A DNA stretch of 30,166 nucleotides from positions 1 through 30,166 of the IMG/VR virus record IMGVR_UViG_3300032315_000982. The stretch is one strand, 5' to 3'. Both the position numbers and the translations under genes were made by a program. Position 1 is the first letter of the stretch; every line of letters begins with the position of its first letter. Positions 126 through 23,001 of the stretch are shown here, piece after piece. Source of the DNA: a virus. The notes beneath the pieces were generated by a model. That model was not told where the DNA came from. It ran no database searches and saw nothing but the letters and a program-made list of their open reading frames with translations.

Positions 126-659
126 TTATTTTTCTAATTCATCATTAAACGCTGATTTTTTCAGCAAATCAGTATAATTCATTGAACCTTTACGGCTAAC
201 ATCGCGCCCAAATATTTTACCAAACTTTTCAGCAGCATCTTTAACGGCGTAAGTTTCAGCGGCGGGTGCGGCTTTTTGCACACCATCGGTTTTAACGGCG
301 TTCCAATCGGTTGCGCCTGCACCTTTATCAGTTTGTATTGGTGCAGCGCCGATACCATCCTGCCACATTGCTTGGCCGTTTATAGGGTTTATTACATGCA
401 GCCTTACAGTAACTACTACTGAGTTAGCAACTATCTGTGTTGACCGAATTTCAACGTTAAAATTGCCAAAGATACGGGTTAGTAAGTATTCTATTTTTTC
501 AATAGGAATATATCTGTAATCGCGAATCATTGGGTGCTGAACTAACCACTTAGCTGGTGGATCTTGATTCAATAATACAGTTAACGCGTTTTGCTTTAGG
601 CTGTCTTCATTTTCTACTAATAGGTCCTGAAGTGTCGGAAGTTTTGTTAGTTGTGTCAT
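126..659 (-). CDS. Probable single-strand annealing protein, Rad52/Sak-like
   Basis: This 177-residue protein probably anneals complementary single strands during phage recombination. Residues 80-105 have the strand-rich pattern VVVTVRLHVINP...W.DGIG, and residues 127-150 have an Ala-rich helix ending in DAAEKFGKIFG. That arrangement resembles the Rad52/Sak group, in which a DGxG strand is followed by an A..DA.KRAA..FG helix. The gene lies ten bases downstream of a RecE-like nuclease on the same strand, the usual exonuclease plus annealing-protein pairing, which supports the call more than the sequence alone. The terminator at 40-84 follows it. It could instead be an unrelated DNA-binding protein; the family assignment is by eye. 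Confidence 0.6.
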   Translation of the reverse strand: MTQLTKLPTLQDLLVENEDSLKQNALTVLLNQDPPAKWLVQHPMIRDYRYIPIEKIEYLLTRIFGNFNVEIRSTQIVANSVVVTVRLHVINPINGQAMWQDGIGAAPIQTDKGAGATDWNAVKTDGVQKAAPAAETYAVKDAAEKFGKIFGRDVSRKGSMNYTDLLKKSAFNDELEK

Positions 660-668
660 GGTTTGAAA

Positions 669-1424
669 TTATTTAGCCCAGTTAGGCAATGAAAGAATAT
701 GTATTTTGTTATCTGATGTATAGCCGTGAAAATTATTAGTTTCCTTGCATTTTTTTAACGTTTCAATATCGGCTAAATATTCTTGGCGCCCGCGTTCAAT
801 TGCTTCGGGATCAAGTTCATAAAGTTCTACGTTAAACGGCGCTTCTTTTTCAACAGCTATAAATATAAAGCGTTCAGCCTTTGTTAGGTCCATATAAAAC
901 GCCGCTTGCACGTGATAGCGATAATTCCAAACAGATTTAGCAAATTCACCGGGTGCTGAATTAGCTGTTGTTTTAAGGTCAATGCAAACGTTATACTTTG
1001 TGTTTAAGAAATCTACTTTGCATTTAGCGTCAAGTTCTGCAATTTTACCGAATACAGGTATTTCTGCTTGGCCCTGTTCTAAAAGTATTGCCGCCTTTGG
1101 ATGTGCTAAAACAACGTTTCTAATGTTTAGGGCCAATTCGTAATCTTTATGCGTTACAAATAATTCTTTGCCTTCGGATTCAGCAATAAATGATTCATAA
1201 ATTGCTTTACCTTCTTTAGTGCGGCGGTCGCATTCTGGCATAACGGCGTAATTATCCTGATTAAATACAACGCTATGAACTAAACTGCCTAAGTTCATAG
1301 CTGAAGTTGGCGCTTGTTTTTCCCCTTCAATATAGGCTTTATAATGCGCAGGTGACTTATGTACTAAGTCTAAAAGTGATTTACTGATGTACTCAGTTTT
1401 ACGGTGATACTCTTGGTTTGTCAT
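669..1424 (-). CDS. RecE/exonuclease VIII-like PD-(D/E)XK nuclease
   Basis: A 251-residue nuclease that should resect double-stranded ends to give single strands for the partner protein at 126-659. Visible PD-(D/E)XK landmarks are GSLVH (46-50), an acidic strand around E121, D138 in KVDFLN, the core IDLKTT with D149 and K151, and YHVQAAFY (170-177). This order is that of RecE C-terminal-like and lambda-exonuclease-like enzymes. I chose the ATG at 1424 because the protein from there begins MTNQEYHRKT. The frame stays open to a GTG at 1457, but that would put the start on the -7 promoter element. The promoter at 1457-1464 on this strand fits an early divergent recombination operon. Confidence 0.75.
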   Translation of the reverse strand: MTNQEYHRKTEYISKSLLDLVHKSPAHYKAYIEGEKQAPTSAMNLGSLVHSVVFNQDNYAVMPECDRRTKEGKAIYESFIAESEGKELFVTHKDYELALNIRNVVLAHPKAAILLEQGQAEIPVFGKIAELDAKCKVDFLNTKYNVCIDLKTTANSAPGEFAKSVWNYRYHVQAAFYMDLTKAERFIFIAVEKEAPFNVELYELDPEAIERGRQEYLADIETLKKCKETNNFHGYTSDNKIHILSLPNWAK

Positions 1425-1456
1425 AAATTTTAAAAATATTTTATTAAATAATAGCA

Positions 1457-1464
1457 CAAATTTA
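1457..1464 (-). promoter_or_regulatory. Bacteroidota-type -7 element for the recombination genes
   Basis: The minus strand reads TAAATTTG, matching TAnnTTTG, 33 bases before the chosen ATG at 1424. A TTG about 20 bases upstream could serve as the -33 element. It lies back to back with the plus-strand element at 1476-1483. Confidence 0.5.
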
Positions 1465-10386: not shown

Positions 10387-10388
10387 AA

Positions 10389-10748: not shown

Positions 10749-10761
10749 AAAACAACAACAC

Positions 10762-11094
10762 ATGAAAACGACAACAGAGTATTTAATGCCAAACGACAAA
10801 ACACTAATTATTACAGGCGAATACAATGAATATTGCCGCGGTTCTCGCGATAAATACGGCGTACCTTTAGAACCTGATGAAGATGCTTTTTTTGAGATTT
10901 TAAGCACTTCGATTGATGATACTGAATACACAACTGATGAACTTGCAATAATGCTTAATATGACTTATGATGAAGTTGAAGAAATTTTGCAAGAATGTTT
11001 AAGAAGTCAAGACGAATCAGATTACGATGCTTATATTGACAACCAAATTCATAACCAACTTGATGACCTTCTATATGAAAAATATAATTATTAG
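10762..11094 (+). CDS. Unknown, strongly acidic 110-residue protein
   Basis: By my count 28 of 110 residues are Asp or Glu and 7 are Lys or Arg. Residues 56-80 (YTTDELAIMLNMTYDEVEEILQECL) resemble a small HTH, while the C-terminal 30 residues are nearly all acidic and polar. High negative charge is a feature of DNA-mimic anti-restriction or inhibitor proteins, but also of many ordinary phage proteins, so no function is claimed. It begins ATGAAAACGACAA, identical for 13 bases to the previous gene's start. It overlaps the next small membrane protein. Confidence 0.55.
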   Translation: MKTTTEYLMPNDKTLIITGEYNEYCRGSRDKYGVPLEPDEDAFFEILSTSIDDTEYTTDELAIMLNMTYDEVEEILQECLRSQDESDYDAYIDNQIHNQLDDLLYEKYNY

Positions 11095-11230
11095 TGCCTG
11101 CGCTGGTTTATTATCTGGTCTAACAATGGCCTTAACACTTGAAAAACTTTATCTTATGTTAGTATTTTGTTTTATTGGCGGCTTATGTCTTGGTATCGGT
11201 TTAATTTTGTTAATTGATAAAAAGAAATGA
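11075..11230 (+). CDS. Small two-helix membrane protein
   Basis: This 51-residue protein has two hydrophobic segments (residues 3-22 and 26-47) joined by a short polar turn (LEK), and ends in DKKK, as expected for a small inner-membrane protein with a cytoplasmic basic tail. I chose ATG 11075 because the in-frame start at 11027 lies deep inside the previous gene and adds only polar residues before the first membrane helix. It overlaps the previous gene by 20 bases. It could be a holin-like or superinfection-related protein; no specific family is recognised. Confidence 0.55.
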   Translation: MKNIIISACAGLLSGLTMALTLEKLYLMLVFCFIGGLCLGIGLILLIDKKK

Positions 11231-11451
11231 TTAACCTAAAAGCCCTCTGCTTAGCGCTGAGCATGGAACGAAGATAATACTAATCAGTATTCCAAATCGT
11301 ATGTTGGCACTGTTAGCGTTCAGGGGATAATTCAAAAACGCATTTTTACTTAACGATACTTGGTTTTGGTAGTTCCAGAAAGGCAGGCCGCTAAACAAAA
11401 ACTTACCTGACAGCTGGAAAGACAGCATTTTTTAACTTTATAACAAACACC
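11231..11451 (+). other. 221-base non-coding gap, candidate structured RNA
   Basis: No convincing gene is present. A tiny 16-residue ORF (11227-11277) overlaps the previous stop. It is followed by a perfect hairpin AATACT/AGTATT (11276-11291), a near-palindrome CTTAGCGCTGAG (11250-11261), an imperfect repeat of TTAGCG.T.AG at 11251 and 11313, and a weak hairpin GCTG/CAGC followed by ATTTTTT (11413-11433). TAACTTTA (11433-11440) is a one-mismatch -7 element before the next gene. A non-coding RNA or leader is possible. Confidence 0.4.
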
Positions 11452-11622
11452 ATGACAGAACTAACTATCGAACATGCAAAAAAAATGCCTTTCATAGATT
11501 GGGTAAAACATTTTAGGCCCGACTGGTCTGATGAAGAATGTGAGTTCTATCTATGGGAATATACTTGTTTTCCATTACATTTTGCAGAAACGATAAAACA
11601 GCTAAACGAGCAACTTTTATGA
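11452..11622 (+). CDS. Unknown 56-residue protein
   Basis: MTELTIEHAKKMPFIDWVKHFRPDWSDEECEFYLWEYTCF is rich in aromatic and acidic residues and helical by eye. It has no recognised family. The ATG follows an A-rich leader (ATAACAAACACC), and its stop overlaps the next start (ATGA at 11619-11622), which argues that it is translated. Confidence 0.55.
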   Translation: MTELTIEHAKKMPFIDWVKHFRPDWSDEECEFYLWEYTCFPLHFAETIKQLNEQLL

Positions 11623-11864
11623 AATACATTATCCTATTTATTGCGGCTGTAATTATCGAAATAGCAAGTACGTTTTACATTTCAGCTGTTTCAGATAGGC
11701 AGCTTTTGCCAATGGTTTTTTGGGCGTTTATAGGGCCTTTTTTAGGCTTGCCCTTCCTTGCCTATCAAATCGAAGCTAAAAACAACCGTGACCGCTTAAA
11801 ACTTGCGCTATGCTATGGTGTAGGCTATGCAACAGGCGCAGCATTAGTAAACATTATAACATAA
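11619..11864 (+). CDS. Small membrane protein, three predicted helices
   Basis: An 81-residue protein with hydrophobic segments at about residues 3-22, 29-50 and 62-80, separated by short polar loops (SDRQ; EAKNNRDRLK). I chose ATG 11619 because it forms an ATGA overlap with the previous gene and starts directly with the first membrane helix; the in-frame ATG at 11553 would lie inside that gene. It precedes the secreted glucosaminidase by six bases, so a role in lysis or export (holin-like) is possible but not shown. Confidence 0.55.
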   Translation: MKYIILFIAAVIIEIASTFYISAVSDRQLLPMVFWAFIGPFLGLPFLAYQIEAKNNRDRLKLALCYGVGYATGAALVNIIT

Positions 11865-11870
11865 ACACAC

Positions 11871-12395
11871 ATGAAAACAGCAATTTTAATTTTGGCAGTA
11901 GTGCTATTTACTTCTGCTACGTTCCCGGCACTAAAAAAACAGCCAAAACAAAACCACATTGAACGTTATATTAACCGCTTTTTAAAGACTGCAAAGCAAG
12001 AAGCGAAACTTTATAATATACCTGTAAGCATAACGCTGGCACAAGGCATTATAGAATCGAATGCAGGGCGTTCAAGTTTAGCAGTTAAACATAATAATCA
12101 TTTTGGCGTAAAGTATCGCGGTAGGGGCAAATATGCTATTTACAAAGACGATACGCCGCGCGATAAATTTCAAGTTTATAAATCTGCATGGTGGTCATAT
12201 CGTGATCATTCAAAGCTGCTAACATCTAAGCATTATAGGCATTTAACAAAGCTAAGCAGATTAAATTATAAAGCATGGGCGCAGGGTCTTAAAAAATGTG
12301 GATATGCAACCGAAAAAAAATATGCTGAAATACTTATTAGTGTCATTGAAAAATATGACCTTTGGGTTTATGATGTACCGATTTTTTCACGATAA
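11871..12395 (+). CDS. Secreted glucosaminidase (FlgJ/lysozyme-like), probable endolysin
   Basis: A 174-residue peptidoglycan hydrolase. Residues 1-20 form a signal peptide (hydrophobic AILILAVVLFTSATF). The catalytic domain is of the endo-beta-N-acetylglucosaminidase family: VSITLAQGIIESNAGRSSLA (52-71) with E62 as predicted general acid, NNHFGVKYRG (75-84), AWWSYRDHSKLL (106-117) and AWAQGLKKCGYATEKKYAEIL (135-155). The signal peptide predicts action in the periplasm without needing holin for release. It follows a small membrane protein and precedes SSB, so it is expressed with middle genes and not with the holin at 14988. Its order relative to that holin makes the lysis scheme uncertain. 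Confidence 0.85.
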   Translation: MKTAILILAVVLFTSATFPALKKQPKQNHIERYINRFLKTAKQEAKLYNIPVSITLAQGIIESNAGRSSLAVKHNNHFGVKYRGRGKYAIYKDDTPRDKFQVYKSAWWSYRDHSKLLTSKHYRHLTKLSRLNYKAWAQGLKKCGYATEKKYAEILISVIEKYDLWVYDVPIFSR

Positions 12396-12630
12396 AACAG
12401 AGGGCGATGAATGGCTAATAATTCAGCACTTACCGATGGGTAATTATAAAGCTATCTGCACACGTGAAAATCAATTTTATAAATTAGGCGATGTAAAAAC
12501 ATTTTTCTTTGATGACTTTAATATTTGGACAAAGGGAAAATTAAAACCTAATAATCATTCTTTAACACTAAAAACAAAATACGATGGTAAACCGCGTAAC
12601 ACTAATTGGCCGGGTCGGAAAAGAACCTGA
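12370..12630 (+). CDS. Unknown 86-residue protein
   Basis: No family recognised. The protein has strand-rich sequence EWLIIQHLPMGNYKAICTRENQFYKLGDVKTFFFDDFNIWTKGK, suggesting a small beta domain, and a basic C-terminus (NTNWPGRKRT). The frame is open from 12298, but earlier starts lie inside the glucosaminidase domain, so I take the ATG at 12370 (12373 is equally possible). It overlaps the glucosaminidase by 26 bases and SSB by 47 bases. Confidence 0.5.
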   Translation: MMYRFFHDKTEGDEWLIIQHLPMGNYKAICTRENQFYKLGDVKTFFFDDFNIWTKGKLKPNNHSLTLKTKYDGKPRNTNWPGRKRT

Positions 12631-12940
12631 GCAAAAAACATTTGGCGAAAAAACGCTAACAAAATTTAGCTTTGCAACATCTGAAAGTAGCAAAGACAAA
12701 AACGGCGAATGGCAAGAAAAAACACAATGGCACAATGTCAGCTATTGGAATAACATTAAACTTGAAAAGGGCGATATGCTTTTTATTGAAGGTAAAATAG
12801 AATACCGGGAACATGAAGGTAAATATTATACTGATATTATTGCTTCGTATTGTAGAAAAATAAACACAGGTCAAAAAGCGCAATCAGTAGAAGTTGAAGT
12901 TATACCACAAACAGAATTTGATACAGATTTGCCATTTTAA
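12584..12940 (+). CDS. ssb: Single-stranded DNA-binding protein
   Basis: A 118-residue OB-fold SSB that coats single-stranded DNA during replication and recombination. The N-terminus VNRVTLIGRVGKEPEQKTF, the segment KFSFATSESSKDKNGEWQEKTQWHNVSYWN, and GDMLFIEGKIEYREHEGKYYTDIIAS follow the bacterial SSB fold in order. The C-terminus FDTDLPF keeps the acidic tip ending in Pro-Phe through which SSB recruits partner proteins. It is shorter than typical host SSB (about 150-180 residues), with a reduced linker, as usual for phages. It is the last gene before the terminator at 13004. Confidence 0.9.
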   Translation: MVNRVTLIGRVGKEPEQKTFGEKTLTKFSFATSESSKDKNGEWQEKTQWHNVSYWNNIKLEKGDMLFIEGKIEYREHEGKYYTDIIASYCRKINTGQKAQSVEVEVIPQTEFDTDLPF

Positions 12941-13003
12941 GTTGCAAAAATAAAATATTTATCTTATTTTTTCTTTGTTGTACTCATTGGTCTTTAGTTT
13001 GGG

Positions 13004-13036
13004 CCGCCTGTTTTGAAGTTCAGGCGGTTTTTTTTT
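13004..13036 (+). terminator. Intrinsic terminator after SSB
   Basis: A perfect 7-bp stem CCGCCTG/CAGGCGG (13004-13010 and 13021-13027) with a 10-base loop is followed by nine T. It ends the unit that started at 9538. Confidence 0.9.
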
Positions 13037-13047
13037 AAAAATAAGAT

Positions 13048-13482
13048 ATGTATTTAACATTTGAGCAAGCGATGCAGCTAATAAAACCTAACGGTGCTAA
13101 GAATCCTAACTATGCTGCTACCAGAATAAGACAGCTTATAAATTTTGGATATTTAACCGAAGTAAAACCCGATGAAATATTTGTAAAGCATTTTGAAGAT
13201 TTTGTTTCTTTAGGCAATATTAAAACAGAATGCTTAGTAACTGCTGAATCCGTTTATAAATACATTCAGAATCGAAATGCAGCGAAAGAACAGTTAGGCA
13301 AAATACCAAAACAAAACCGTCACGTTAAAGCTGTGCTATCTAATGATACAATTATTAACTTTATGTCGGTTGATGCAGCATGTTTATATTTTGCCATATC
13401 TCGGGTTAGAATTATGAATAGCATTGAAAAGAAAAAATATATTAGAGTTCCTAAAATTGACGAATTAGTAAAATTTATATAA
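13048..13482 (+). CDS. Unknown 144-residue protein with NUMOD1-like segment
   Basis: Residues 90-130 (HVKAVLSNDTIINFMSVDAACLYFAISRVRIMNSIEKKKYI) resemble the NUMOD1/helix-turn-helix module found beside HNH and GIY-YIG homing nucleases: a short strand, then S.DAA...ISR..I. The N-terminal half (TFEQAMQLIKPNGAKNPNYAATRIRQLINFGYLTEV) reads as a second, MerR/excisionase-like DNA-binding helix pair. No nuclease motif is present, so if it belongs to that group it is a solo DNA-binding protein. It begins 12 bases after a strong terminator with no clear promoter, so its expression probably depends on read-through. Confidence 0.5.
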   Translation: MYLTFEQAMQLIKPNGAKNPNYAATRIRQLINFGYLTEVKPDEIFVKHFEDFVSLGNIKTECLVTAESVYKYIQNRNAAKEQLGKIPKQNRHVKAVLSNDTIINFMSVDAACLYFAISRVRIMNSIEKKKYIRVPKIDELVKFI

Positions 13483-13484
13483 TT

Positions 13485-13841
13485 ATGTTTAACGAATTAG
13501 CAAAAGAAATACATGAAGGTAACGCCGCGCGCGGATTTTGGGATGGCGAACGAAAATTAACCGAAGTGGTTATGCTTACTGTTTGCGAATTAGCTGAAGC
13601 CATTGAAGCCGACCGCGCTGAAAAGTGGGCAACCGAAACAGATATTTTACAATACAAAAATATCAGCACGCCCGAACGTTTTAAAGAAAATATCAAAGAC
13701 ACGGTTCAAGATGAAATAGCTGATGCGATAATTAGAATTTTAGATTTTAGTCATAAGTTTAACATTGATTTAGATTTTCACATCAAAGCTAAATTACAAT
13801 ATAATGCTTCAAGACCTTACAAACATGGTAAAACATATTAA
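13485..13841 (+). CDS. MazG-like nucleotide pyrophosphohydrolase
   Basis: A 118-residue all-alpha NTP pyrophosphohydrolase of the MazG/dUTPase-2 superfamily. The metal-binding pattern is ELAEAIEADR with E35 and E38, and DTVQDEIADAIIRILDF with E77 and D80, separated by a helical spacer. The C-terminal YNASRPYKHGKTY matches the conserved K..YN..R...HGK.. ending of the phage members. Phage MazG-type enzymes hydrolyse dNTPs or modify alarmone levels; the exact substrate is not predictable. It is two bases downstream of the NUMOD-like gene and followed by small genes in one operon. Confidence 0.85.
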   Translation: MFNELAKEIHEGNAARGFWDGERKLTEVVMLTVCELAEAIEADRAEKWATETDILQYKNISTPERFKENIKDTVQDEIADAIIRILDFSHKFNIDLDFHIKAKLQYNASRPYKHGKTY

Positions 13842-13844
13842 AAA

Positions 13845-14024
13845 ATGACACGTACAGAACAGCTAAGATTAAAAAAGATACTTGAATACAAAAAAGGCTA
13901 TTTAGATGCTTTGTTGTGGATTCAAGATCAAGAGCCTTACGATGATGAATTAGAATTAAGAATTGACATTTTTACACACAAAATTGAAGAACTTCAAAAC
14001 AAACTTAAAGGACATGACGAATGA
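13845..14024 (+). CDS. Unknown 59-residue coiled-coil protein
   Basis: MTRTEQLRLKKILEYKKGYLDALLWIQDQ... and IDIFTHKIEELQNKLKGHDE form two amphipathic helices with heptad-like leucines, separated by PYDDE. No family is recognised. It starts three bases after the MazG-like stop and overlaps the next gene by 11 bases. Confidence 0.6.
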   Translation: MTRTEQLRLKKILEYKKGYLDALLWIQDQEPYDDELELRIDIFTHKIEELQNKLKGHDE

Positions 14025-14424
14025 CGAAAAAAAAGCGGCACTAATTGATAAGATTGGTGAGCAAAAAGTAAACGAATTAACCCAAAACATTTGGCTGCTG
14101 TTAGGCGCACTAAGCACTGCAAAATATGCCATTGCACAGTTTGAACCTAAAAAACTAAAATTTGAAATGAAAAAAAGGTTTATGGATTTGCACACATCTA
14201 TAAATCTATTTGTTAATAATTTCGAAAAGGCAGCAACGCCAACCGAACGCGACCTACTAAATGAAAGTACTTACGATAATGTAGCCGTTATAGCTGAAGT
14301 TGTTGCGATGGCTTCTACATTGCCAGAATCACAATCAGAATGGTATTTAAACGAATGCAAAAAATTATTATTTTCAGCTTATAACAAATCACAAAATGAA
14401 CTGCGTAGCGAAAGCGGTGAATAA
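14014..14424 (+). CDS. Unknown 136-residue helical protein
   Basis: No family recognised. The protein is almost entirely helical with a hydrophobic central stretch (NIWLLLGALSTAKYAIAQF, residues 25-43) too polar at its ends to be a convincing membrane helix. I chose ATG 14014 and not the in-frame 13963 because AAAGGAC immediately precedes it and the longer version would lie inside the previous gene. It overlaps the previous gene by 11 bases and the next by 29. Confidence 0.55.
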   Translation: MTNDEKKAALIDKIGEQKVNELTQNIWLLLGALSTAKYAIAQFEPKKLKFEMKKRFMDLHTSINLFVNNFEKAATPTERDLLNESTYDNVAVIAEVVAMASTLPESQSEWYLNECKKLLFSAYNKSQNELRSESGE

Positions 14425-14794
14425 ATTGTTTCCTAATCAGGATTTAACAGAATTTTACGACCGTAAATTAGGCGTTGGTATGGGTGATATCCAGCGCATG
14501 ATACCAACGGATTTATCTGTATGGGCCGTTTATTGTAACCATCACAAATGTGTTAATTTTGACCTAATTAGGCAGCTACCAAAAACCGAAAATTTTATAC
14601 CGTTATTTCTATTTAGTTCGGTTATGTCGGACCGCTTTAAGCTACATTGTGAATTTGCATTATGGGATCGTAACACAGTTATAGTTAATGATATTGAACA
14701 CGATGCTGATGAATATTTTCAGCGTAACAAAATACTACAGATAGCGGCGCTAATTAAGTTTGAAACACACGAAATACTGATAGTAAAAAAATGA
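14396..14794 (+). CDS. Unknown 132-residue protein
   Basis: No family recognised with confidence. It begins MNCVAKAVNKLF and has a two-part layout: an N-terminal helix with Cys3, then strands (TDLSVWAVYCNHHKCVNFDLIRQL; FIPLFLFSS) and a C-terminal NDIEHDADEYFQRNKILQIAALIKF. The early Cys and later His-Asp hint at a papain-like arrangement, but the spacing is not convincing and I do not claim it. It overlaps its neighbours by 29 and 4 bases (ATGA). Confidence 0.55.
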   Translation: MNCVAKAVNKLFPNQDLTEFYDRKLGVGMGDIQRMIPTDLSVWAVYCNHHKCVNFDLIRQLPKTENFIPLFLFSSVMSDRFKLHCEFALWDRNTVIVNDIEHDADEYFQRNKILQIAALIKFETHEILIVKK

Positions 14795-14967
14795 AAAATT
14801 TACCGACATTTGAAGAAACGTTTAACCAGCAAAAATATGAAGCGGGCGATAATCAAACATTTGAAAAAATCGGTTACATAATTGTAAATGAACTATGGTT
14901 AAGAAATTTTCATAAGTTAGCCCAAACAAAAAAACCGCTGCCTAAAAAAGACAGCGGCCACACATGA
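14791..14967 (+). CDS. Unknown 58-residue protein, last gene of the rightward unit
   Basis: MKNLPTFEETFNQQKYEAGDNQTFEKIGYIIVNELWLRNF is followed by a Lys/Pro-rich tail. It starts in an ATGA overlap with the previous gene. Its last ten codons contain the terminator hairpin of the opposite-strand virion operon (14928-14957), so the C-terminal tail KKPLPKKDSGHT may be constrained by that hairpin and not by protein function. Confidence 0.55.
   Translation: MKNLPTFEETFNQQKYEAGDNQTFEKIGYIIVNELWLRNFHKLAQTKKPLPKKDSGHT
14928..14957 (-). terminator. Terminator of the leftward virion operon
   Basis: On the minus strand the stem CCGCTG/CAGCGG (14952-14957 with 14935-14940) is followed by seven T (14934-14928). 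It lies 31 bases after the holin stop. On the plus strand no T-run follows, so it is one-way. The stem is the same as that of the terminator at 46-70. Confidence 0.85.
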
Positions 14968-14987
14968 AAACAGCAAAAGAGCAAACA

Positions 14988-15446
14988 TCATTCAGGCTCG
15001 GTATCTTTACCGGGCTTTTTTAATATATCTTTAGGATTCGGAATAAAACCTTTAAAATAACCGATAATATTAACACCTGTTGTTTGTGATACGTTTTCAA
15101 AAATTGATTTTAGTTCAATGCCACAAACGAACAAAGCAACATAATAAGATAATGTAATTTCTAAATCTAACATCCACGTGAAAACCTGACTTGAAATTAT
15201 CGCTAAACAATAATCATTCATTTTGTTTATTGTTCTTCTAAAACCGCGCGATTGTATTTTTTCTTTTAATGCTTTAGCTTTACGAACGCCTGTTAAAAAG
15301 TCAACTAATAGTAAAAAACTGAGGCAAATAATAAGCGGCTTTAAAATAAAAAGTTGTTGCTTAATTTCTGGCAAAATCTTAATAAAATAGTTTAGCGAAT
15401 CAGATGCTAATCTAAGCGAATCGGCGGTAATAGTCAGGGAATCCAT
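14988..15446 (-). CDS. Phage holin family protein
   Basis: A 152-residue membrane protein, last of the virion operon. Three hydrophobic segments lie at about residues 32-53 (LFILKPLIICLSFLLLVDFLTG), 78-95 and 100-115. The VDFLTGVRKAKALKEKIQSRGFRRTINK segment between the first and second helices is typical of the Phage_holin_4 family, in which D..TG precedes a basic loop. The C-terminus is polar and charged (KDILKKPGKDTEPE). It would form the membrane lesion that triggers lysis. It begins in a TAATG overlap with the upstream membrane-protein gene. Confidence 0.75.
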   Translation of the reverse strand: MDSLTITADSLRLASDSLNYFIKILPEIKQQLFILKPLIICLSFLLLVDFLTGVRKAKALKEKIQSRGFRRTINKMNDYCLAIISSQVFTWMLDLEITLSYYVALFVCGIELKSIFENVSQTTGVNIIGYFKGFIPNPKDILKKPGKDTEPE

Positions 15447-15934
15447 TATAAGATTTTAATATAACGTGAAACAATAACGGCGGTTGGTGTACCAATGAAG
15501 ATATACCACCACGGCAGGGGAACAAATATAATAAAGAATGTAAATGTAAATAGTGAAACCCATGTACCAAAGCAAATAGGGCAGGCGCCAAGCATTGACC
15601 AAGGGTTATTTTTCATATTGTTTTCGACATCATTATAAAGTGATTCTACTTCTTGTAGGTATTCTTTATAAATAGTATCAGCTTCTTCAGCTGTTTTATT
15701 TTGCAGTTCTTCGTTTAGTTCCTTATCGCGGTTTTGCTTCCACGCGTTATATTTTGCCCACACGCGTTTTTTTTCTTTAGCTTCGAAGTCTAAGTATAGT
15801 TTAGAAATAAATTTGCCGTAAGCGGAAAATATGCGCCCAGAATAATATTCGCCCTGCACAGGTGATCCGATACAATAATGCAAAAACTTAATTGAAAAGG
15901 CTGCAAATATTGAAAGTGTTATAAGGGATAGCAT
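15446..15934 (-). CDS. Membrane protein with CPIC motif
   Basis: This 162-residue protein has an N-terminal hydrophobic helix (residues 2-22), a long charged region with coiled-coil character (45-108), then GACPICFGTWVSL (116-128) leading into two hydrophobic segments (127-143 and 143-156). A CPxC-x-G-x-W motif at the mouth of a membrane helix resembles small DUF1360-like membrane proteins. The position just upstream of the holin suggests a lysis or late membrane role such as an accessory holin, but no spanin features are visible. Confidence 0.6.
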   Translation of the reverse strand: MLSLITLSIFAAFSIKFLHYCIGSPVQGEYYSGRIFSAYGKFISKLYLDFEAKEKKRVWAKYNAWKQNRDKELNEELQNKTAEEADTIYKEYLQEVESLYNDVENNMKNNPWSMLGACPICFGTWVSLFTFTFFIIFVPLPWWYIFIGTPTAVIVSRYIKIL

Positions 15935-15935
15935 G

Positions 15936-16160
15936 TTAGTCTATTGGTGGGAATGGTGGTTCGGGTTTAGGTTTATAGTCTATCAAAGGTAGTGTTTTTA
16001 CCCATTGAAACTCAGGATTTACGCAAAATTCCATTTCCTCTGTGCTGATTATCCATTGGTCTGAAATATCTTGTATTGGGTTGAAATAGCTGTCATCGTC
16101 ATATAATTGCCCGACAAGCTCATTTTTTTGCGATTCTGTTAATAGTCCTACGTATGTCAT
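15936..16160 (-). CDS. Unknown 74-residue protein of the fibre region
   Basis: MTYVGLLTESQKNELVGQLYDDDSYFNPIQDISDQWIISTEEMEF is followed by a Pro-rich C-terminus (YKPKPEPPFPPID). I do not know a function. Its position directly after the fibre gene (ATGA overlap) suggests a fibre-associated or chaperone role, which is inference. Confidence 0.6.
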   Translation of the reverse strand: MTYVGLLTESQKNELVGQLYDDDSYFNPIQDISDQWIISTEEMEFCVNPEFQWVKTLPLIDYKPKPEPPFPPID

Positions 16161-16939
16161 ACTTGTCTACCTAAAGTTGTTTGAAATGCCTGCACGGCTG
16201 TGTAAAAATTACTTGCATCTGTATCTGTTAAGCCATCACCGATAGATGCGAAAGCAAATTGTTTTGATGAAAATATTTGAGCTGAACCACTATTATTTCT
16301 TGCACCAACATAAACATCAAAATTTATTGCTGTTGTTCCAGCAGATGTGTTTGTTCCTTTTAAAATACCATTCAAAAACCCTTTATGATTTGATGATGAA
16401 TTTCTTGTGTTAATATGAAAACCTCTTGAATCAGCATTTATAAAACTTACATATTGACCTCCAAAAGATGAATGATTTGTATAATAAGTAACATTTGAAA
16501 TTCTTGAATCAATACCAAAACCTGCTACAGAGCCATTATAATTTCCTATGTCTTCTTTTGCTTCATCAATATTTGTTCTAACATAAATTGACATATGATT
16601 ATTATTAGTTATTGCAGAAGGATTTAAAAAAGTATTTGCATATGAATTAGTTCCATTACCTTGTATACCATTTGCACTATGAGTCATACCACCAAAAAAT
16701 ACTAAGCGAAAAGCTGCATTTGTATCCAAAGGATTTTTCAAATTCCATTTATGCGTTGATGCAGTACCTCCAACAAATGGGTATATAGCACGCATTTTTG
16801 TCCAAATATTGTTAGCCTTTAGTGATAGTACTAAGGTATTGACAGCACTCTGTTGCGTTGGATTTGTCAAACCTGCTGCGGTAATAAACGCTTGTGCATC
16901 GGCATCAAAAGCAGCAAAAACATAAGGATTTATTATCAT
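16157..16939 (-). CDS. Tail fibre/receptor-binding protein with lectin-like core
   Basis: A 260-residue protein likely to contact the host surface. Residues 1-77 (FDADAQAFITAAGLTNPTQQSAVNTLVLSLK...IWTKMRAIYPFVGG) and 231-260 (SIGDGLTDTDASNFYTAVQAFQTTLGRQV) are the conserved frame I recognise from Bacteroidota phage fibre proteins. Between them, residues 78-230 form a Ser/Asn/Gly-rich beta region (MSIYVRTN, FHINTRNSSSNHKGFLNGIL, NFDVYVGARNN) that reads as a concanavalin/LamG-like jelly roll. This central part is encoded by a 456-base stretch with no CG dinucleotide (16251-16706), unlike both flanks. It begins in an ATGA overlap with the 403-residue fibre gene. Confidence 0.7.
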   Translation of the reverse strand: MIINPYVFAAFDADAQAFITAAGLTNPTQQSAVNTLVLSLKANNIWTKMRAIYPFVGGTASTHKWNLKNPLDTNAAFRLVFFGGMTHSANGIQGNGTNSYANTFLNPSAITNNNHMSIYVRTNIDEAKEDIGNYNGSVAGFGIDSRISNVTYYTNHSSFGGQYVSFINADSRGFHINTRNSSSNHKGFLNGILKGTNTSAGTTAINFDVYVGARNNSGSAQIFSSKQFAFASIGDGLTDTDASNFYTAVQAFQTTLGRQV

Positions 16940-18147
16940 CTTGTTCCGATTAGAGTTAATTTAAGACCTGTTGCTGTTCCGTTTCCTATCTGGTCGATGT
17001 CTATTGTAATTTCGGCATCGTCAGTAAGCGCAGATGTCGTAATAGTTGCAGGCGTAGCAGCCGTTGTGCTTGTTTTTTCTGTATTGTCAATTGTTAGCTT
17101 TGTACCTAAAACAGATGTGCCACCTTGATTTATGTCAACCGTAAAAATAGAACCCGATGCTTGTGCCGTTGTAAGCGATGCACGAACCGATGTAAGTGTC
17201 ATAGCGTGAGGCATTCTGAAAGTTACCTTAGCAGTTCCCGTTGTTAAGGCTGTTGTTTCATCGCTGGCAGCTAATTGTATCTCTACAGCTTGTCTTGTAT
17301 CGTTTTGAACATGTAGCAAGATATGTCCATCTGTTGCACTTTTTTTAGCAACATAGCCAACTACAACTATATAATTAGGTGTTGCAGGTTTAACATTTGT
17401 AATTGCACCCGGTGTTGTTGTACTGAGATATAAAATATCACCTTCTGTAAAAGCGTTTGTGTTTAATCCGTGTACTAATCCGTTAATCGCCACAAAGCCG
17501 TTTGAAGTATCTGCAATGTCTTCTGCCGTAATACCAAAAGTTGTTTCACTATTTGCAACGCTGTTTGCTTGTGCTAAGTTTATACCAACAAATCCGCCTG
17601 CAACACCCACCACTTTTACAACGCTGCCTTTTGATATTAAAGAACCGCTTGTATTACGTGCCTTAATAACTAATTGCTGACCAAGTCTATTGATTAAACC
17701 ACCTTGCAAACCTAAATCTAAAGTACCATCTGTGCTATTCCACGCTAATTCACCAACCCCAACTGTATGTGCTGCTGCTGTGTCAAATTCTAAATAATCT
17801 AAGTCAATAATTCCAGCATTTGCAGAATTGCCTACAACTAAAACACTTGCTAAGTCTTGTGAACCGCCGCCACCACTAACTACAAAAAAAAAATCTGTAC
17901 TTAACAATTGGGCTAAGTCCGCACAATTACCTGTAAAAGGTATTGCCGCGGCTGGTACTACTTCAGTATTTGCAACTTGTGCAGGGTCGATATATTCAAC
18001 GCTGCCATTATCTTGAACAACTTTAACGCTGCCGTTAACGTTACATTCAATTTCAACGATGTCAGGGCTAAGGCTGTTAATGAAATCGCCCGATGTCGAA
18101 TCATAAATAGCTACATTACCATTTGCGAGTTTTACTATGTCTATCAT
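16936..18147 (-). CDS. Fibre or decoration structural protein
   Basis: This 403-residue protein has an N-terminal domain (IVEIECNVNGSVKVVQDNGSVEYIDPAQV), then FTGNCADLAQLLSTDFFFVVSGGGGSQDLASVL (71-103), a glycine hinge and a fibre-style repeat start (LVVGNSANAGIIDLDYLEF). The middle (131-275; GELAWNSTDGTLDLGL...GQQLVIKARNTSG) is the domain common to phage fibres, in which short strands enclose an N-S-T-D-G turn. The C-terminus is a Thr/Ala-rich beta domain ending LTLIGTR, which reads as a jelly roll. It precedes the lectin-like gene by an ATGA overlap, so the two may form one fibre. Confidence 0.65.
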   Translation of the reverse strand: MIDIVKLANGNVAIYDSTSGDFINSLSPDIVEIECNVNGSVKVVQDNGSVEYIDPAQVANTEVVPAAAIPFTGNCADLAQLLSTDFFFVVSGGGGSQDLASVLVVGNSANAGIIDLDYLEFDTAAAHTVGVGELAWNSTDGTLDLGLQGGLINRLGQQLVIKARNTSGSLISKGSVVKVVGVAGGFVGINLAQANSVANSETTFGITAEDIADTSNGFVAINGLVHGLNTNAFTEGDILYLSTTTPGAITNVKPATPNYIVVVGYVAKKSATDGHILLHVQNDTRQAVEIQLAASDETTALTTGTAKVTFRMPHAMTLTSVRASLTTAQASGSIFTVDINQGGTSVLGTKLTIDNTEKTSTTAATPATITTSALTDDAEITIDIDQIGNGTATGLKLTLIGTR

Positions 18148-18150
18148 TTT

Positions 18151-18489
18151 TTATAAGTTTATTTCATTATTATATAATCCTACTTTAGTACTAAATTCAA
18201 TGCAATCATATTCAATGCCGTCAACTTCAATTTTAACTACCTCACCGTTAGGGTCAATTATCTGGCCAGTATATGTGTAATTTTCGTTTAGGTTTGTCAT
18301 TGTAAAAATAACTGTTTCACCATCTAAAACATCAATGCTATAATAAATAGAAATACTACCAAAATTAAGCTGCAAAACCCAAACGCCTTCATTTAGCGCA
18401 TCAACAACAATACCAGTATTAAATACAGCATCACAACTGTTAAGACAGCCCAAAATTAACGTATTTTCACAACAATTACAACAAGCCAT
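18151..18489 (-). CDS. Cysteine-rich 112-residue protein
   Basis: The N-terminus MACCNCCENTLILGCLNSC has six cysteines within 19 residues; residues 20-112 are strand-rich (WVLQLNFGSISIYYSIDVLDGETVIFTMTNLNENYTYTG) and look like a beta sandwich. It has no recognised family. It follows the terminator at 18513-18540 and starts the fibre subset. A metal-binding or disulfide-linked baseplate part is possible. Confidence 0.6.
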   Translation of the reverse strand: MACCNCCENTLILGCLNSCDAVFNTGIVVDALNEGVWVLQLNFGSISIYYSIDVLDGETVIFTMTNLNENYTYTGQIIDPNGEVVKIEVDGIEYDCIEFSTKVGLYNNEINL

Positions 18490-18512
18490 ATATATAAATT
18501 TAAATATTTTCT

Positions 18513-18540
18513 AAAAAAGGGGGTATTGATCCCAACCCCC
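18513..18540 (-). terminator. Internal terminator between neck and fibre genes
   Basis: On the minus strand GGGGG/CCCCC (18536-18540 with 18519-18523), with a 12-base loop, is followed by six T (18518-18513). It lies 45 bases after the 190-residue gene. The loop is fairly large but the stem and T-run are good. Confidence 0.75.
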
Positions 18541-18584
18541 TACTAATTGCCCCAAGGTAGCGAAATTTGGCGGCATAGTGAATC

Positions 18585-19157
18585 TTAACATATCGTGAAT
18601 GGTTTGCACTTTTCATTTAGTGCTAAATCATATCTTAATTCAAAATCTATACTAACTATTTGCATTAAACTTTGCAATGTCTTTGCATCTTTGCCTGTTT
18701 CTGAAGCGTAAACAGTCCATGGTAGTATTTCATTAGATACCGGGAACAAACGCGGGTTAACTATTGCGTATTGCCATTGTACGCCCTTAAAATTCGCACC
18801 GTAAAGCGCAAACTTAACCGAATCTAATAACATACGCGGATCAGCGCATAAGTTCCAAAAAACTAATTTAAATGGAACACGCACATCCAATTCGATACCA
18901 CAACTTCCGCGCTTTGTATTTGCTGCTTTTCTTGTTTCAGAAACAATACCATTAACACGGATATAATAGCCCGCTCCCGAGGTGTCTGTGATGCCAACAT
19001 AATTACGGTGTCCGTTTTGCGTAACATTTAAACTAACAACCTGCCCAGCAGTATCTTTTACAGCTATGCCATTACCGTTAACGTTTACATTTACGGCTGT
19101 CATTGCAGTATCAATTTGCTTAATTAGTTCGGTTATTATATTTTGTGTTACGTACAT
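18585..19157 (-). CDS. Probable neck/tail-terminator-like protein
   Basis: A 190-residue protein. Residues 82-130 (KRGSCGIELDVRVPFKLVFWNLCADPRMLLDSVKFALYGANFKGVQWQ) and 143-178 (ILPWTVYASETGKDAKTLQSLMQIVSIDFELRYDL) resemble a neck or tail-terminator layout: a strand, a DP-start helix, then a closing strand. The hexapeptide KRGSCG (82-87) is also present in the 291-residue tail-like protein at 27754. It ends KCKPFTIC, with two cysteines. It lies downstream of the 188-residue neck protein through a TAATG overlap. The family name is tentative. Confidence 0.5.
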   Translation of the reverse strand: MYVTQNIITELIKQIDTAMTAVNVNVNGNGIAVKDTAGQVVSLNVTQNGHRNYVGITDTSGAGYYIRVNGIVSETRKAANTKRGSCGIELDVRVPFKLVFWNLCADPRMLLDSVKFALYGANFKGVQWQYAIVNPRLFPVSNEILPWTVYASETGKDAKTLQSLMQIVSIDFELRYDLALNEKCKPFTIC

Positions 19158-19723
19158 TATAGTAAATCGATTTCTTCTAAAATTGCTAATAGTTCATTTC
19201 GTGCGGCTGTTTCGCCTAATTCGCGTTCTGTTTCTGATACGGTTGAAATATCTTTTGCAAAACGTTCTTCTTGAAATTCCATTATATTTGCCATTTCATC
19301 ATTCGTATAAGTTATGGCACTAACGCTGGCATTTTCAGTAACTTTAATGCTTTGAAATAATGAACCGCTAAAATTTAAATCAACTGTATTTGATTGTCGG
19401 CCTGTTAAATCTCTTAGTTCTTTATAACCTTGTGTTAAATACTTTGTTTTATGCGGATTGCCATTTTTAAAAACACTTTGACCGTTTTTACCTTGCGGTT
19501 TTATAGCTGATGCTTTAACTGTTGTTAATGTAAGCGGATTTATATAAAACGGATTAACACTATATTGCCCTATTGAACCGCCTGATGTATCTAAGCCTAA
19601 AAAAAATATTCTTTGCTTATATTCTGCAATGACTTGAATAGCGGCAGCCTGTGATATTCTACGCGCTGTATTATCGTCATTTACAACTTGTGCAAGTATT
19701 TCTAAGCGTTCAGATATATTCAT
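19157..19723 (-). CDS. Probable head-tail connector/tail-completion protein
   Basis: This 188-residue protein has an Arg-rich N-terminal helix (ERLEILAQVVNDDNTARRISQAAAIQVIAEYKQRIF). It then has YKELRDLTGRQSNTVDLNFSGSLFQSIKVTENASVSAITYTNDEMANIMEFQEERF, which follows the pattern of HK97 gp10/Mu gpG-like proteins (an L-[ST]-G-x-L strand, then an interaction region ending in an E-F turn). The C-terminal acidic helix (ISTVSETERELGETAARNELLAILEEIDLL) fits. TAATG overlaps on both sides tie it to the neighbouring neck genes. Confidence in the exact role is moderate. Confidence 0.5.
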   Translation of the reverse strand: MNISERLEILAQVVNDDNTARRISQAAAIQVIAEYKQRIFFLGLDTSGGSIGQYSVNPFYINPLTLTTVKASAIKPQGKNGQSVFKNGNPHKTKYLTQGYKELRDLTGRQSNTVDLNFSGSLFQSIKVTENASVSAITYTNDEMANIMEFQEERFAKDISTVSETERELGETAARNELLAILEEIDLL

Positions 19724-20703
19724 TAGCCGGGAAACATTGGGTACATTCTTAAACGTGGTTCACATCTATAACAAAAGCGGTCAGTTTCTAACAGCTGAAT
19801 AATATTATCAATTTCATTATCTAAAGCTTCAATGCTGGCATTTTCCCACTCAGCTATTTTAACATTTGCCCATTCGTTACCGTGTGTTTTAATTAGATTT
19901 AACCTGTTGTTAGGCGAAACCCATTCTTTAAGAATTTGCACACCTGTTTGATACAGAATTGTCATACCTAATCGGTCTAAAAACTGGCAAATAATATCAG
20001 TATCAACACAATCAACACGTACACACGCGCCTAAATAACCCGAAGGCGAAGCACTAACACCGTTCCAACCTTCAACATTTAGCACCATATCACCGCAAGG
20101 CTTACAATTAGATGCAGCATTGCAAGTGTATAGATAAGGCGCTACTCTTGTAGTGTCTATGGTAATTAAAATTACATCTTCATTAAAAAACTTTTTAACA
20201 AATATGTGCATTTCCGTATCTGCAAAAACAGTAACAGCCTGACTAAATAATATATTGCCTGCATAATCAGTTACATAAATTGTTGAACTTGCATTAACTG
20301 TACTTTTAAAACGTACCGAATCTACAAAAATACGGCTTTGTGGGCTACTAATCCATTTTTTAGATACTTTGATGCCGCGATTGGCAGCTACAGGTATATC
20401 TGAAACATTACTAACCTGACAAACAGAATATAAACTGCCAATGCTATTTAACTTTATACCACGCGCATTTAAAACAGCTTTCAAACGCTTTTCTACAATA
20501 TCAGCAGCAAAATACATCTTTTCGCGTACTGTTTCTGTAGCTGAAACTAATGCCTCACTACTAACTGCTGCGACATTATTTATAGTTAACCCTTCAAGAT
20601 TTTCTAAATAATAACCGCTTGTCGGAACTGTACCTTCAGGATAACAGCCGTTAAGACTTATTATATAGTTTTCTAAACAAGTAGGTGTATTAAGATTCAG
20701 CAT
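19723..20703 (-). CDS. Unknown 326-residue virion protein
   Basis: The protein is strand-rich with cysteines, including TCNAASNCKPCGDMVLNVEGWNG (around residues 193-215) and VRVDCVDTDIICQFLDRLG. The segment YDAALDNEIDNIIQLL-type C-terminus (SIEALDNEIDNIIQLLETDRFCYRCEPRLRMYPMFPG) adds a CYRC pair. I do not recognise a family. Its position between the capsid gene cluster and the neck proteins suggests a head-completion, neck or baseplate part. The gene overlaps the previous one by 14 bases and the next by one (TAATG). Confidence 0.55.
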   Translation of the reverse strand: MLNLNTPTCLENYIISLNGCYPEGTVPTSGYYLENLEGLTINNVAAVSSEALVSATETVREKMYFAADIVEKRLKAVLNARGIKLNSIGSLYSVCQVSNVSDIPVAANRGIKVSKKWISSPQSRIFVDSVRFKSTVNASSTIYVTDYAGNILFSQAVTVFADTEMHIFVKKFFNEDVILITIDTTRVAPYLYTCNAASNCKPCGDMVLNVEGWNGVSASPSGYLGACVRVDCVDTDIICQFLDRLGMTILYQTGVQILKEWVSPNNRLNLIKTHGNEWANVKIAEWENASIEALDNEIDNIIQLLETDRFCYRCEPRLRMYPMFPG

Positions 20704-21061
20704 CTAATTCAGTTTGTTTTTTGCGACCGCGTTTTTTAGGCTTTTCAGTTTCGGTTATTTCTTCGGTTTCAACGGCTTCAACGGTTTCGGCTTCGATGGT
20801 TTCGGGTTGTTGTACATTTTCTTCTATTTTAATTACAGATAATAAACCTTCTGAATAATAAATATCTTTAGGGAAATCATTTTGCTTTACAGCCTTTTCA
20901 ACAGCCTTGTTAATCTTTATGCTGCCTATTGTTTTCTTTTGTGTTGAATAGTCGAATAAATAAACAACATCTTCGTTATCTGTACGCTGTACATTTACCG
21001 CGCTGTAATATTTACGAATTATTGTTAATGCTTGTGCTATTTTTTTTGAATAGTTTACCAT
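20690..21061 (-). CDS. Unknown 123-residue protein with acidic and basic tail
   Basis: Residues 1-70 (YSKKIAQALTIIRKYYSAVNVQRTDNEDVVYLFDYSTQKKTIGSIKINKAV) look like a small alpha/beta domain. Residues 80-112 are an extremely acidic, repetitive linker (EAETVEAVETEEITETEKPKK), followed by a basic knob (KKRGRKKQ). Such tails occur in head-stabilising or DNA-associated phage proteins. It is the first gene after the capsid terminator at 21075-21098. Confidence 0.55.
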   Translation of the reverse strand: MVNYSKKIAQALTIIRKYYSAVNVQRTDNEDVVYLFDYSTQKKTIGSIKINKAVEKAVKQNDFPKDIYYSEGLLSVIKIEENVQQPETIEAETVEAVETEEITETEKPKKRGRKKQTELDAES

Positions 21062-21074
21062 GTGTTTTTATTTT

Positions 21075-21098
21075 AAAAAAGGGCGGTTTCCCGCCCTT
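21075..21098 (-). terminator. Terminator directly after the major capsid gene
   Basis: On the minus strand AAGGGCGG/CCGCCCTT (21091-21098 with 21079-21086) forms an 8-bp stem with a 4-base loop (GAAA). It is followed by a T-run (21080-21075). It lies 13 bases after the capsid stop. It allows strong capsid expression relative to downstream genes. Confidence 0.9.
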
Positions 21099-21110
21099 CA
21101 ATCATTAAAA

Positions 21111-22829
21111 CTAAATTGTACCGTTATAAGTATCGTTGCAAGCTGCGCTATCAGTAATAGTAAGCTGTGCAGCACCTGTATTAGAACTTGTAGTGTAGAA
21201 ATTACTATAAGTTCCATATACATTTGATTCGCCTAAAATTTGAGCAGTAGGCGCACCATCAAATGAATTTGAATCTAAAACCCAATCAAGGTCTGTAATT
21301 GTCGCACCTGTTGAAGGCGTTGAAGCACTATAAACATTGTAAAGTGTTTCAGTAGAAACAGTAAGCGCAACATCTGTAGTTGTAGCAGAAACAATTACAA
21401 CCGATGTAACTGTATCATTAGTCAAAACATAGATTGTTAACGCTGTGCCATCCCAACCACCTGCAACAGTATAAATTGAACCTACACTTGCAAGGGCAGC
21501 TTGTGCAGCAGCTACAAAATTATTAGCACCAGCTTCAGTACCTGTATCGAATGAACCGCCTACGCTAAATGGTAAGCCGTTGATTTGAATTGCAATAGCA
21601 TCAGTAACATCAACTTCAATACCTTCAAATTGCTCAACTTCAACTTCTCTTGAATAGAACAAAGCACTACATGCTACTTCACAAGCATCAGCAGATTCGC
21701 AGAATGTTGCATCAGTTGCATTTGGTGCAGCAACAAAACCGCAAGCTGGTTCAATATCGCAATATCCTGTATCAGCGCAAACAACTTGATATTTGAATAC
21801 ATCAAGTACACCATCAAATAAACAGTCGTTAACTGCCCAGCATTTAGGCATACCAACTACGGCCCAATTAGTAGCGAATTGAATGTATAGTTCAATTTCA
21901 TCATTACACTTAACGTAAGACATAACAACATCATGCTCAATACCTAACCAAGGGTCAACAACAGTAGTACGCATTTGGTCTTCAAAGTCATAAGTAAATT
22001 GACCTTTGTTCTTTGCGTAAGTGATAAGTTGAAGCGCACCCGGTGCCATTGCGATAATGTCGCTTGTGTTACCTAATGCAGCAGGAAGGTTAGTATCGTA
22101 ATAGATAGAACGTGTGATTTCAAGCAAAGAAGCATCAAAACCATTATCGTTACCAGATGCAATAACACGCGCTTTGCGGTATTGGTCAAGCAAAGTACCA
22201 CCGATAAGAATCAATTGTTGTTCAATTTCAGCTTGTTTGCGATCGCTGTCAAGGATTGATTCACCAACAGGATTGATACCTAAACCAGAACTAAGGAACA
22301 AAGGCAAAGACTTAGAAGTAACAGCAGGATCAGCACAATCGCACTTAACGAATGAACCAACAAAACCACCGTTAGCTACAACCGTTGCAACTTCTTTACC
22401 TAACTTGTTAATATGGTTTCTAAGAACTTCATTAACATAACTGTTTTGATAATCGGCGCGGCTTTCTTTGATACAACGAATTAACTCATCGTCAATCTTA
22501 ATTTTCTGAGAAACTGTTTTGTTAGTAATTTCAACTTCATCATAAAGCGGCTTAACTACATCGCCATCAGTAGGGCAATATTCAAGTGAAGTAGCGTTAG
22601 ATTCAGAAAGACGTGGGAAAAAACGGCGTGAAACTTTGTACACTTTACCGTTACCTTGTTCAACGGCTTGAACGTTGCCAAGTTTAACTTGTGATGCTGA
22701 TTTGTTTGCAGCAGAAACAAGCAATTGCAAAAGACCGATGTTTGGTGAAGGCATAGAACGCATGCCGCTATTATTATTTAGCGATATGTCTATAATTTTC
22801 CACGCATCAGCGAGTTTTATAGTTGACAT
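21111..22829 (-). CDS. Major capsid protein
   Basis: A 572-residue shell protein. The core (residues 1-350; for example TNKTVSQKIKIDDELIRCI, LRNHINKLGKEVATVVANGGF, DQYRKARVIASGNDNGFDASLLEI, FTYDFEDQMRTTVVDPWLGIEHDVVMSY) has the helix-strand layout of HK97-type capsid proteins. Six cysteines lie at 351-387 (C351, 357, 363, 377, 383, 387), ahead of a Thr/Ala-rich beta extension (400-572) that could be an added surface domain. Position supports the call: scaffold gene upstream, its own -7 promoter element (22942-22949), terminators on both sides. The extra 200 residues are longer than the usual fold requires. Confidence 0.75.
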   Translation of the reverse strand: MSTIKLADAWKIIDISLNNNSGMRSMPSPNIGLLQLLVSAANKSASQVKLGNVQAVEQGNGKVYKVSRRFFPRLSESNATSLEYCPTDGDVVKPLYDEVEITNKTVSQKIKIDDELIRCIKESRADYQNSYVNEVLRNHINKLGKEVATVVANGGFVGSFVKCDCADPAVTSKSLPLFLSSGLGINPVGESILDSDRKQAEIEQQLILIGGTLLDQYRKARVIASGNDNGFDASLLEITRSIYYDTNLPAALGNTSDIIAMAPGALQLITYAKNKGQFTYDFEDQMRTTVVDPWLGIEHDVVMSYVKCNDEIELYIQFATNWAVVGMPKCWAVNDCLFDGVLDVFKYQVVCADTGYCDIEPACGFVAAPNATDATFCESADACEVACSALFYSREVEVEQFEGIEVDVTDAIAIQINGLPFSVGGSFDTGTEAGANNFVAAAQAALASVGSIYTVAGGWDGTALTIYVLTNDTVTSVVIVSATTTDVALTVSTETLYNVYSASTPSTGATITDLDWVLDSNSFDGAPTAQILGESNVYGTYSNFYTTSSNTGAAQLTITDSAACNDTYNGTI

Positions 22830-22941
22830 TTATTGTAATTTAATAATATAAAAAATTGTTTTTGTTTGGCATTTTCCACGCTGCCAGCGTTCTGTTTTTT
22901 TTCTGTGCCGCAGCACCCTATTTTGTGAGAGGTCGTTACTG

Positions 22942-22949: not shown

Positions 22950-23001
22950 AGATGTTTTAAAATAAATAATTTTATAAATTTTTTATAGAATATTTTGCAC
23001 T

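Follow-up and report, generated by a model that had tools for sequence, protein, structure and literature searches.

A CpG-free stretch lies over a probably interchangeable core in a putative lectin-like phage adhesin

The fibre gene investigated here very probably encodes a lectin-like adhesin in which residues 1–81 and 227–260 form a conserved frame and residues ~82–226 an interchangeable core, swapped by recombination at the conserved ends. The gene is located in a 30,166-base stretch of viral DNA, referred to as the window. Exchange of the core is supported by sequence comparisons that do not depend on base composition, namely regional dS, conflict between trees, synteny of the backbone and change-points; the modular swapping first proposed from the letters of the window (the sequence-only reading) is thereby upheld, with host binding by the swapped part as a prediction.

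The fibre gene, its predicted fold and its neighbours

The fibre gene, its parts and the two adjoining genes are as follows (window coordinates):

16157..16939, minus strand: predicted receptor-binding (fibre/adhesin) gene, 260 aa (ORF; PHROG match; jelly-roll model)
16697..16939, minus strand: conserved N-terminal flank, residues 1–81, two helices and first strands (identity, model)
16262..16696, minus strand: probable exchanged core, residues 82–226 (change-points; dS contrast; GC3 deficit over residues 80–230)
16157..16261, minus strand: conserved C-terminal flank, residues 227–260 and stop codon, edge strand and C-terminal helix (identity, model)
15936..16160, minus strand: companion ORF, 74 aa, overlapping the fibre stop by 4 nt
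16936..18147, minus strand: upstream structural-type gene, 403 aa (ORF), overlapping the fibre start by 4 nt

A Pfam profile search with the fibre protein gave no family (including lectin and LamG families) above its cut-off, and the PHROG matches, with phrog_17104 as the best (E 2e-13), were all of unknown function. The AlphaFold2 model, based on a 61-sequence alignment, had a mean pLDDT of 89.8 and a pTM of 0.89, and comprises N-terminal helices (residues 13–22 and 27–42), a beta-sandwich and a C-terminal helix (residues 239–256). When compared to the PDB, the model was most similar to the region of domain 4 of the arabinanase AbnA (5ho2; Z 18.1, 2.6 Å, 186 residues), the other matches being further jelly-roll domains of the ConA/LamG kind, and ConA-like lectin and LamG are among the names carried by the viral matches in BFVD. 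The fold matches also contained binding domains of clostridial neurotoxins, which are read only as a reflection of the common jelly-roll fold. A concanavalin-A/LamG-like jelly roll is thus supported by a confident model and its fold matches, in agreement with the lectin-like character that the sequence-only reading had ascribed to the segment. The exchanged part would, according to the model, supply most of the sandwich strands together with their loops, and the frame the helices and edge strands. A ConA-like fold does not by itself establish a ligand, and carbohydrate binding, tail attachment and host or receptor binding are putative roles, suggested by the fold together with the genomic context.

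Ten named records were matched by the fibre protein, all at less than 60% identity, with Flavobacterium phage FL-1 as the best (33%), and named-phage relatives of the window were found neither by a DNA search with 18000–25900 nor by a protein search with the 596-aa ORF. The viral relatives compared below (L002–L081) are the best 80 of 102 confirmed loci, all of them metagenome contigs. Judging from the translations, the domain is fused to Ig-like repeats in relatives; in L002 it ends a 450-aa protein that begins with such repeats.

The upstream 403-aa gene has a weak match to Phage_cement_2, below the cut-off. It contains a second mosaic segment (17284–17867), which is entirely or mostly missing from the blastn matches of L003, L014, L015, L017, L018 and L038, with both sides aligned at 74–92%. 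The companion ORF has a relative in 70 of the best 80 of 102 loci (tblastn), the 4-nt overlap being usual, and accompanies the fibre whatever the core type, with an identity showing no evident tie to that type. It was modelled with a pLDDT of 94.7 and matches only unnamed phage proteins; its best PDB match had a Z of only 2.6 and no known fibre chaperone was among the matches listed, which excludes nothing. Between fibre and companion ORF, a homing-endonuclease-like ORF is found in L012 and L002 and an endolysin-type gene in L077. The endolysin-type gene of the window (24430–25056) lies far from the holin, among structural genes, and its relatives adjoin the fibre in L002 and L077, with a nucleotide match of ~70–78% where little else matches.

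Histories of the core, its flanks and the phage backbone

Several relatives carry nearly the same core between clearly different flanks. Nucleotide identity to the window over N-flank, core and C-flank amounts to 78, 98 and 78% in L002, 73, 96 and 87% in L004–L006, and 64, 89 and 70% in L010. The corresponding dS values between the window and L002 are 0.77, 0.044 and 0.85, so that the core does not evolve in step with its flanks, and a core of 98% nucleotide identity and such low dS between flanks so diverged at synonymous sites is a pattern that protein-level selection cannot produce. When the locus sequences were compared by blastn, the matches of L002 and L004–L006 to the window were confined to the fibre, the companion ORF and the endolysin gene. 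Scanning with the core alone recovered the same contigs and, in addition, a partial one and two at 34% identity. These alignments show one and the same middle in phages with little other detectable DNA in common.

The reverse arrangement, with the same backbone and a different core, is equally present. L012 matches the window over 12397–18871 at 89–93% outside the core and its edges, with an N-flank 99% identical at the nucleotide level up to residue 54, and L022 and L027 match ~10122–22938 at 89–94% with the core omitted. The cores of these three relatives are only 53–60% identical to that of the window in nucleotides, so the ends align and the core does not, as the sequence-only reading had anticipated; core dN among the backbone relatives is 0.54–0.81. 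A pairwise survey covered 77 distinct domain copies and 2,850 pairs, after 18 of 95 copies had been dropped as identical duplicates. Among the 44 pairs with a core identity of at least 85%, the N-flank is below 80% in 34; among the 47 pairs with an N-flank identity of at least 85%, the core is below 65% in 40. Grouping at 85% identity resulted in 71 combinations of 51 N, 55 core and 45 C types, and seven of the eight core types with more than one member were found with two or more N types; this count depends on the threshold (6/9 at 80%), and fewer types have clearly different N flanks at 80% than at 85%.

Two copies of the domain occur in 14 of the best 80 of 102 loci, 11 times within one ORF, and the paired cores are at most 61% identical. 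The two lectin-domain copies share one ORF in L004, L005, L006, L035, L052, L057, L058, L060, L069, L070 and L078, where the paired cores are at most 53% identical in nucleotides. Such genes would carry alternative cores side by side and could be a source for exchange. Elsewhere in the window, gaps at 10401–10741 and/or 14798–14930 interrupt highly similar backbone alignments (L013, L022, L026, L027, L031 and others), which suggests further exchanged or inserted pieces.

Change-points in the core-swapped pairs (n = 18) had medians at residue 95.5 on the left (IQR 82–105) and at residue 226 on the right (226–227), those in the core-shared pairs (n = 35) had medians of 81 and 232 with a wide spread, and the GC3 deficit of the family begins near residue 80 and stops near 230. 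Residues 46–105 are well conserved, and residues 79–105 of the CpG-free core are not hypervariable. The sequence-only reading had placed both boundaries at domain limits and both frames wholly outside the CpG-free core: this holds for the right edge (226–232), but on the left a conserved shoulder carries the N-terminal conservation on to about residue 105. Phylogenetic trees were built for the 14 taxa with at least 90% of a neighbouring 162-aa gene, and the trees of the neighbouring gene, N-flank, core and C-flank all rejected each other (AU p ≤0.0004), including the separate core phylogeny that had been suggested as a check. The middle is shown to have a history different from those of the ends and the neighbouring genes. 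The conflict between the N-flank and C-flank trees implies that the flanks are not one unit, and that single crossovers and whole-gene exchange occur as well.

A gene evolving in place, with a fast core under diversifying selection between constrained ends, would also produce conserved ends around a variable middle, and the high core dN among the backbone relatives fits such an account; it is nevertheless very improbable in view of the 98% identical core at a dS of 0.044 between flanks at 0.77–0.85 and of the tree conflict among the 14 taxa, and for several pairs rate variation without exchange is ruled out by the dS contrast. We consider it just as improbable that the assembly of metagenomes joined the conserved gene ends to cores of different phages. 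The viral relatives are all metagenome contigs, and conserved ends could mislead an assembler, but the contigs sharing a core are mostly non-identical there (89–96% for L003, L004, L007 and L010), many flank substitutions lie close to the core, and several samples yielded contigs with this arrangement (L004, L005 and L006; L007, L008 and L009). Rewriting of the core by a diversity-generating retroelement, although such elements diversify receptor-binding or tail-fibre proteins elsewhere, including in a Bacteroides phage, according to the accessible part of the literature, can be regarded as exceedingly improbable. Record-wide searches covered 44 records (the window and 43 of the 80 loci), most of them fragments, and a reverse transcriptase (RVT_1) was found in none of these; furthermore, the window contains no template repeat, near-repeats of the fibre ORF occur in only 3 of 81 sequences and represent a second domain copy each time, and the differences include synonymous third positions. 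Somewhat less improbable, yet still unlikely, is that the exchange is driven, through cleavage and co-conversion, by homing endonuclease genes beside the fibre. A candidate lies directly after the fibre in two of the cleanest swap partners, a 201-aa ORF with a NUMOD3 motif in L012 (2822–3427; 20.8 bits, cut-off 20.4) and a 198-aa ORF in L002 (5913–6509), HNH-like by eye and without a Pfam match; against this, a crude motif scan of 66 distinct loci found such genes within 2.5 kb in only three, with one lying 1.7 kb off, and none is present at the corresponding position in the window.

Codon composition of the core

The absence of CG claimed for 16251–16706 is exact, the nearest CG dinucleotides on either side starting at 16249 and 16707. 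These 456 bases are the longest CpG-free gap in the whole window and span residues 78–230 of the fibre gene, whose ten CpGs all lie outside the run (seven before, three after). The second-longest gap has 450 bases (4442–4892), so such gaps are not unique in the window; it sits within an AT-rich ORF (3195–5369, GC3 0.14) with matches to helicase and N6/N4 DNA methylase families. Recoding of the core residues with the codon usage of the window gave a mean of 16.4 CpGs and a minimum of 5 (5,000 draws), and when synonymous codons were shuffled within the whole fibre gene, P was 0.0008 for a core with zero CpG and 0.005 for a longest gap of at least 458. A shuffle confined to the core gave a mean of 1.1 CpGs and zero CpG with P 0.26. 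The lack of CpG is thus beyond chance against the codon usage of the window and unremarkable given the core's own codons.

The core lacks CpG because it uses almost only A/T-ending codons, with a GC3 of 0.05 against 0.24 and 0.22 in the flanks and AGA for all five of its arginines. The CpG-free run reflects AT-richness at third positions and not avoidance of CpG, whose loss is a by-product; CpG avoidance as such (e.g. through methylation or restriction) was rejected, the codon composition of the core accounting for zero CpG (P 0.26). As a sign of exchange, the gap pointed to a real exchanged unit, whereas the CpG loss in which it was recognized is a side effect of A/T-ending codons. The drop in GC3 from ends to middle is ~0.22 in the window fibre, and a drop of at least 0.19 was seen in none of 97 control genes of 220–450 aa from the window and related loci.

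Composition was compared across the family after dropping loci with less than 1,500 nt of other genes, leaving 56 loci in one test and 55 in that of fourfold sites. At fourfold sites of the 55 loci, GC averaged 0.09 in the core, as against 0.18 in the N-flank, 0.17 in the C-flank and 0.20 in other genes. Correlation with the phage's own genes was 0.71 (N-flank), 0.52 (C-flank) and 0.10 (core). In 46 of the 55 loci, which have about six other genes of at least 150 aa each, the core was more A/T-shifted than all of these genes. Among 13 homologues from bacterial genomes, five lacked a clear GC3 deficit and the rest had a mild to strong one. Synonymous third-position changes within core types numbered 34 from A/T to G/C and 20 from G/C to A/T, and the amelioration test, which considered the direction of these changes, was not decisive. 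Since low GC3 is common to the cores of nearly all relatives, it alone neither dates nor proves a single transfer into the window phage.

A tentative reading, which we hold somewhat less probable than its negation, is that the core belongs to a pool of cassettes with a base composition of its own, moving so often that its synonymous sites uncouple from the phage genome that carries it, while the frame follows that genome. If so, a local loss of GC3, visible as a CpG desert, would be a single-genome marker of exchanged receptor-binding parts. A little less probable, and on balance unlikely, is that selection on core RNA or translation, unrelated to exchange, accounts for the A/T-ending codons; this account competes with the pool for the composition only. 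A GC3 deficit in 53 of the 55 loci speaks for such selection, and the third-position changes (34 to G/C, 20 to A/T) fit a low-GC equilibrium no less than a drift towards the mean of the genome, but five of the 13 bacterial homologues (L082, L083, L085, L089 and L093) have no clear deficit, and the core GC3 of 0.69 in L083 indicates that the fold does not require one. The composition data fit a cassette pool, and an A/T-favouring pressure on the core is also possible.

Candidate recombination enzymes and known systems

Homologous recombination at the conserved ends offers the simplest fit to the data, and we infer it as the most likely mechanism. Two phages would meet in one cell, where the conserved gene ends could act as homology arms, and recombination between these ends would replace the middle and hence the binding surface; the new middle may then change the surface sugar recognized. 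The CpG-free stretch would be the visible trace of such events, since a core pool would keep A/T-ending codons whatever the phage. Two genes of the window encode the likely agents in this phage:

126..659, minus strand: Rad52-family single-strand annealing protein (PF04098 Rad52_Rad22, 24 bits, cut-off 20.3)
669..1457, minus strand: exonuclease partner, PDDEXK, exonuclease VIII-like (PF12684, E 6e-36; phrog_412 exonuclease VIII, E 1e-76)

The window thus holds an annealase with a nearby exonuclease, as in a Rad52-type system. PF04098 was found in 8 of the 44 records (7 above the cut-off; mostly fragments), including the window, L007, L014, L022 and L027, and DUF3799 in 12 of the 44 (11 above the cut-off; mostly fragments). 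The median pair identity of the flanks is modest (68% for N, 66% for C), so each event may need partners more similar than the median pair, and the longest runs of perfect identity have medians of 14 nt in the N-flank, 10 nt in the C-flank and 8 nt in the core. According to the accessible part of De Paepe et al. 2014 (PMC3945230), Rad52-like annealases promote mosaics between diverged sequences, and a 67% identity combined with a run of 11 bp yielded recombinants below the authors' threshold of 1e-8; the flank runs of 14 and 10 nt lie at the low end of the range reported there as tested. The family resembles that system, as far as its available text describes it, in that a Rad52-family annealase is encoded by a phage and the mosaics are bordered by moderately conserved sequence; the work of De Paepe et al. 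was experimental and used lambdoid phages, whereas the system of the window is known from gene presence alone. RecT, as an alternative annealase, and a serine invertase (Resolvase, PF00239) were each found in none of the 44 records, which are weak absences given that most records are fragments. An invertible tail-fibre switch was also considered and set aside, no serine recombinase gene being found in these same, mostly fragmentary records. Within 15400–18200, the only repeat was a 15-nt inverted pair of 93% identity (15545/17543), with no direct repeats.

T-even adhesins are said to have been described in 1998 as swapping specificity by recombination at conserved segments that bracket hypervariable receptor-binding segments. 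The family of the window is similar in that a variable core lies between conserved ends and their histories conflict. The adhesin gp38, according to the accessible part of PMC12529663, has five glycine-rich motifs alternating with four hypervariable segments; in the family studied here, one continuous jelly-roll core is instead swapped between two ends, with a putative role in specificity. Exchange of receptor-binding domains between close and unrelated phages, as presented in the part of Smug et al. 2023 (PMC10684548) available to us, is a further parallel, although the tail-fibre and neck-passage examples given there retain the N-terminus and exchange a C-terminal domain that is not homologous, in contrast to an internal homologous core with both ends staying in place. 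The cryoconite phages of Bellas et al. 2020 (PMC7468147), in the accessible account, likewise combine a stable core genome with shuffled homologous variants of tail-fibre and receptor-binding domains, deduced from reads recruited and reconstructions made across several metagenomes; as far as that account goes, the present family differs in that the breakpoints lie inside one gene and the composition is decoupled from the backbone. Published work on this protein family was not found in a literature search that left most subscription journals outside its reach.

Swapping of adhesins by recombination at conserved parts is already known, and is seen here unusually cleanly; less expected is a core composition uncoupled from the genome, family-wide. 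In a phage adhesin family that is so far uncharacterised, the results locate a probable domain exchange with a precision of a few residues at one of its two edges, and both informative kinds of partner are present, with the same core in other phages and other cores in the same phage. Spacing of CpG, read from the letters alone, located a real recombination unit, though CpG is not the cause. The natural combinations of frame and core constitute a ready set for asking if the core alone sets host specificity and, should composition prove to mark what is exchanged, one genome could be enough to flag receptor-binding cassettes.
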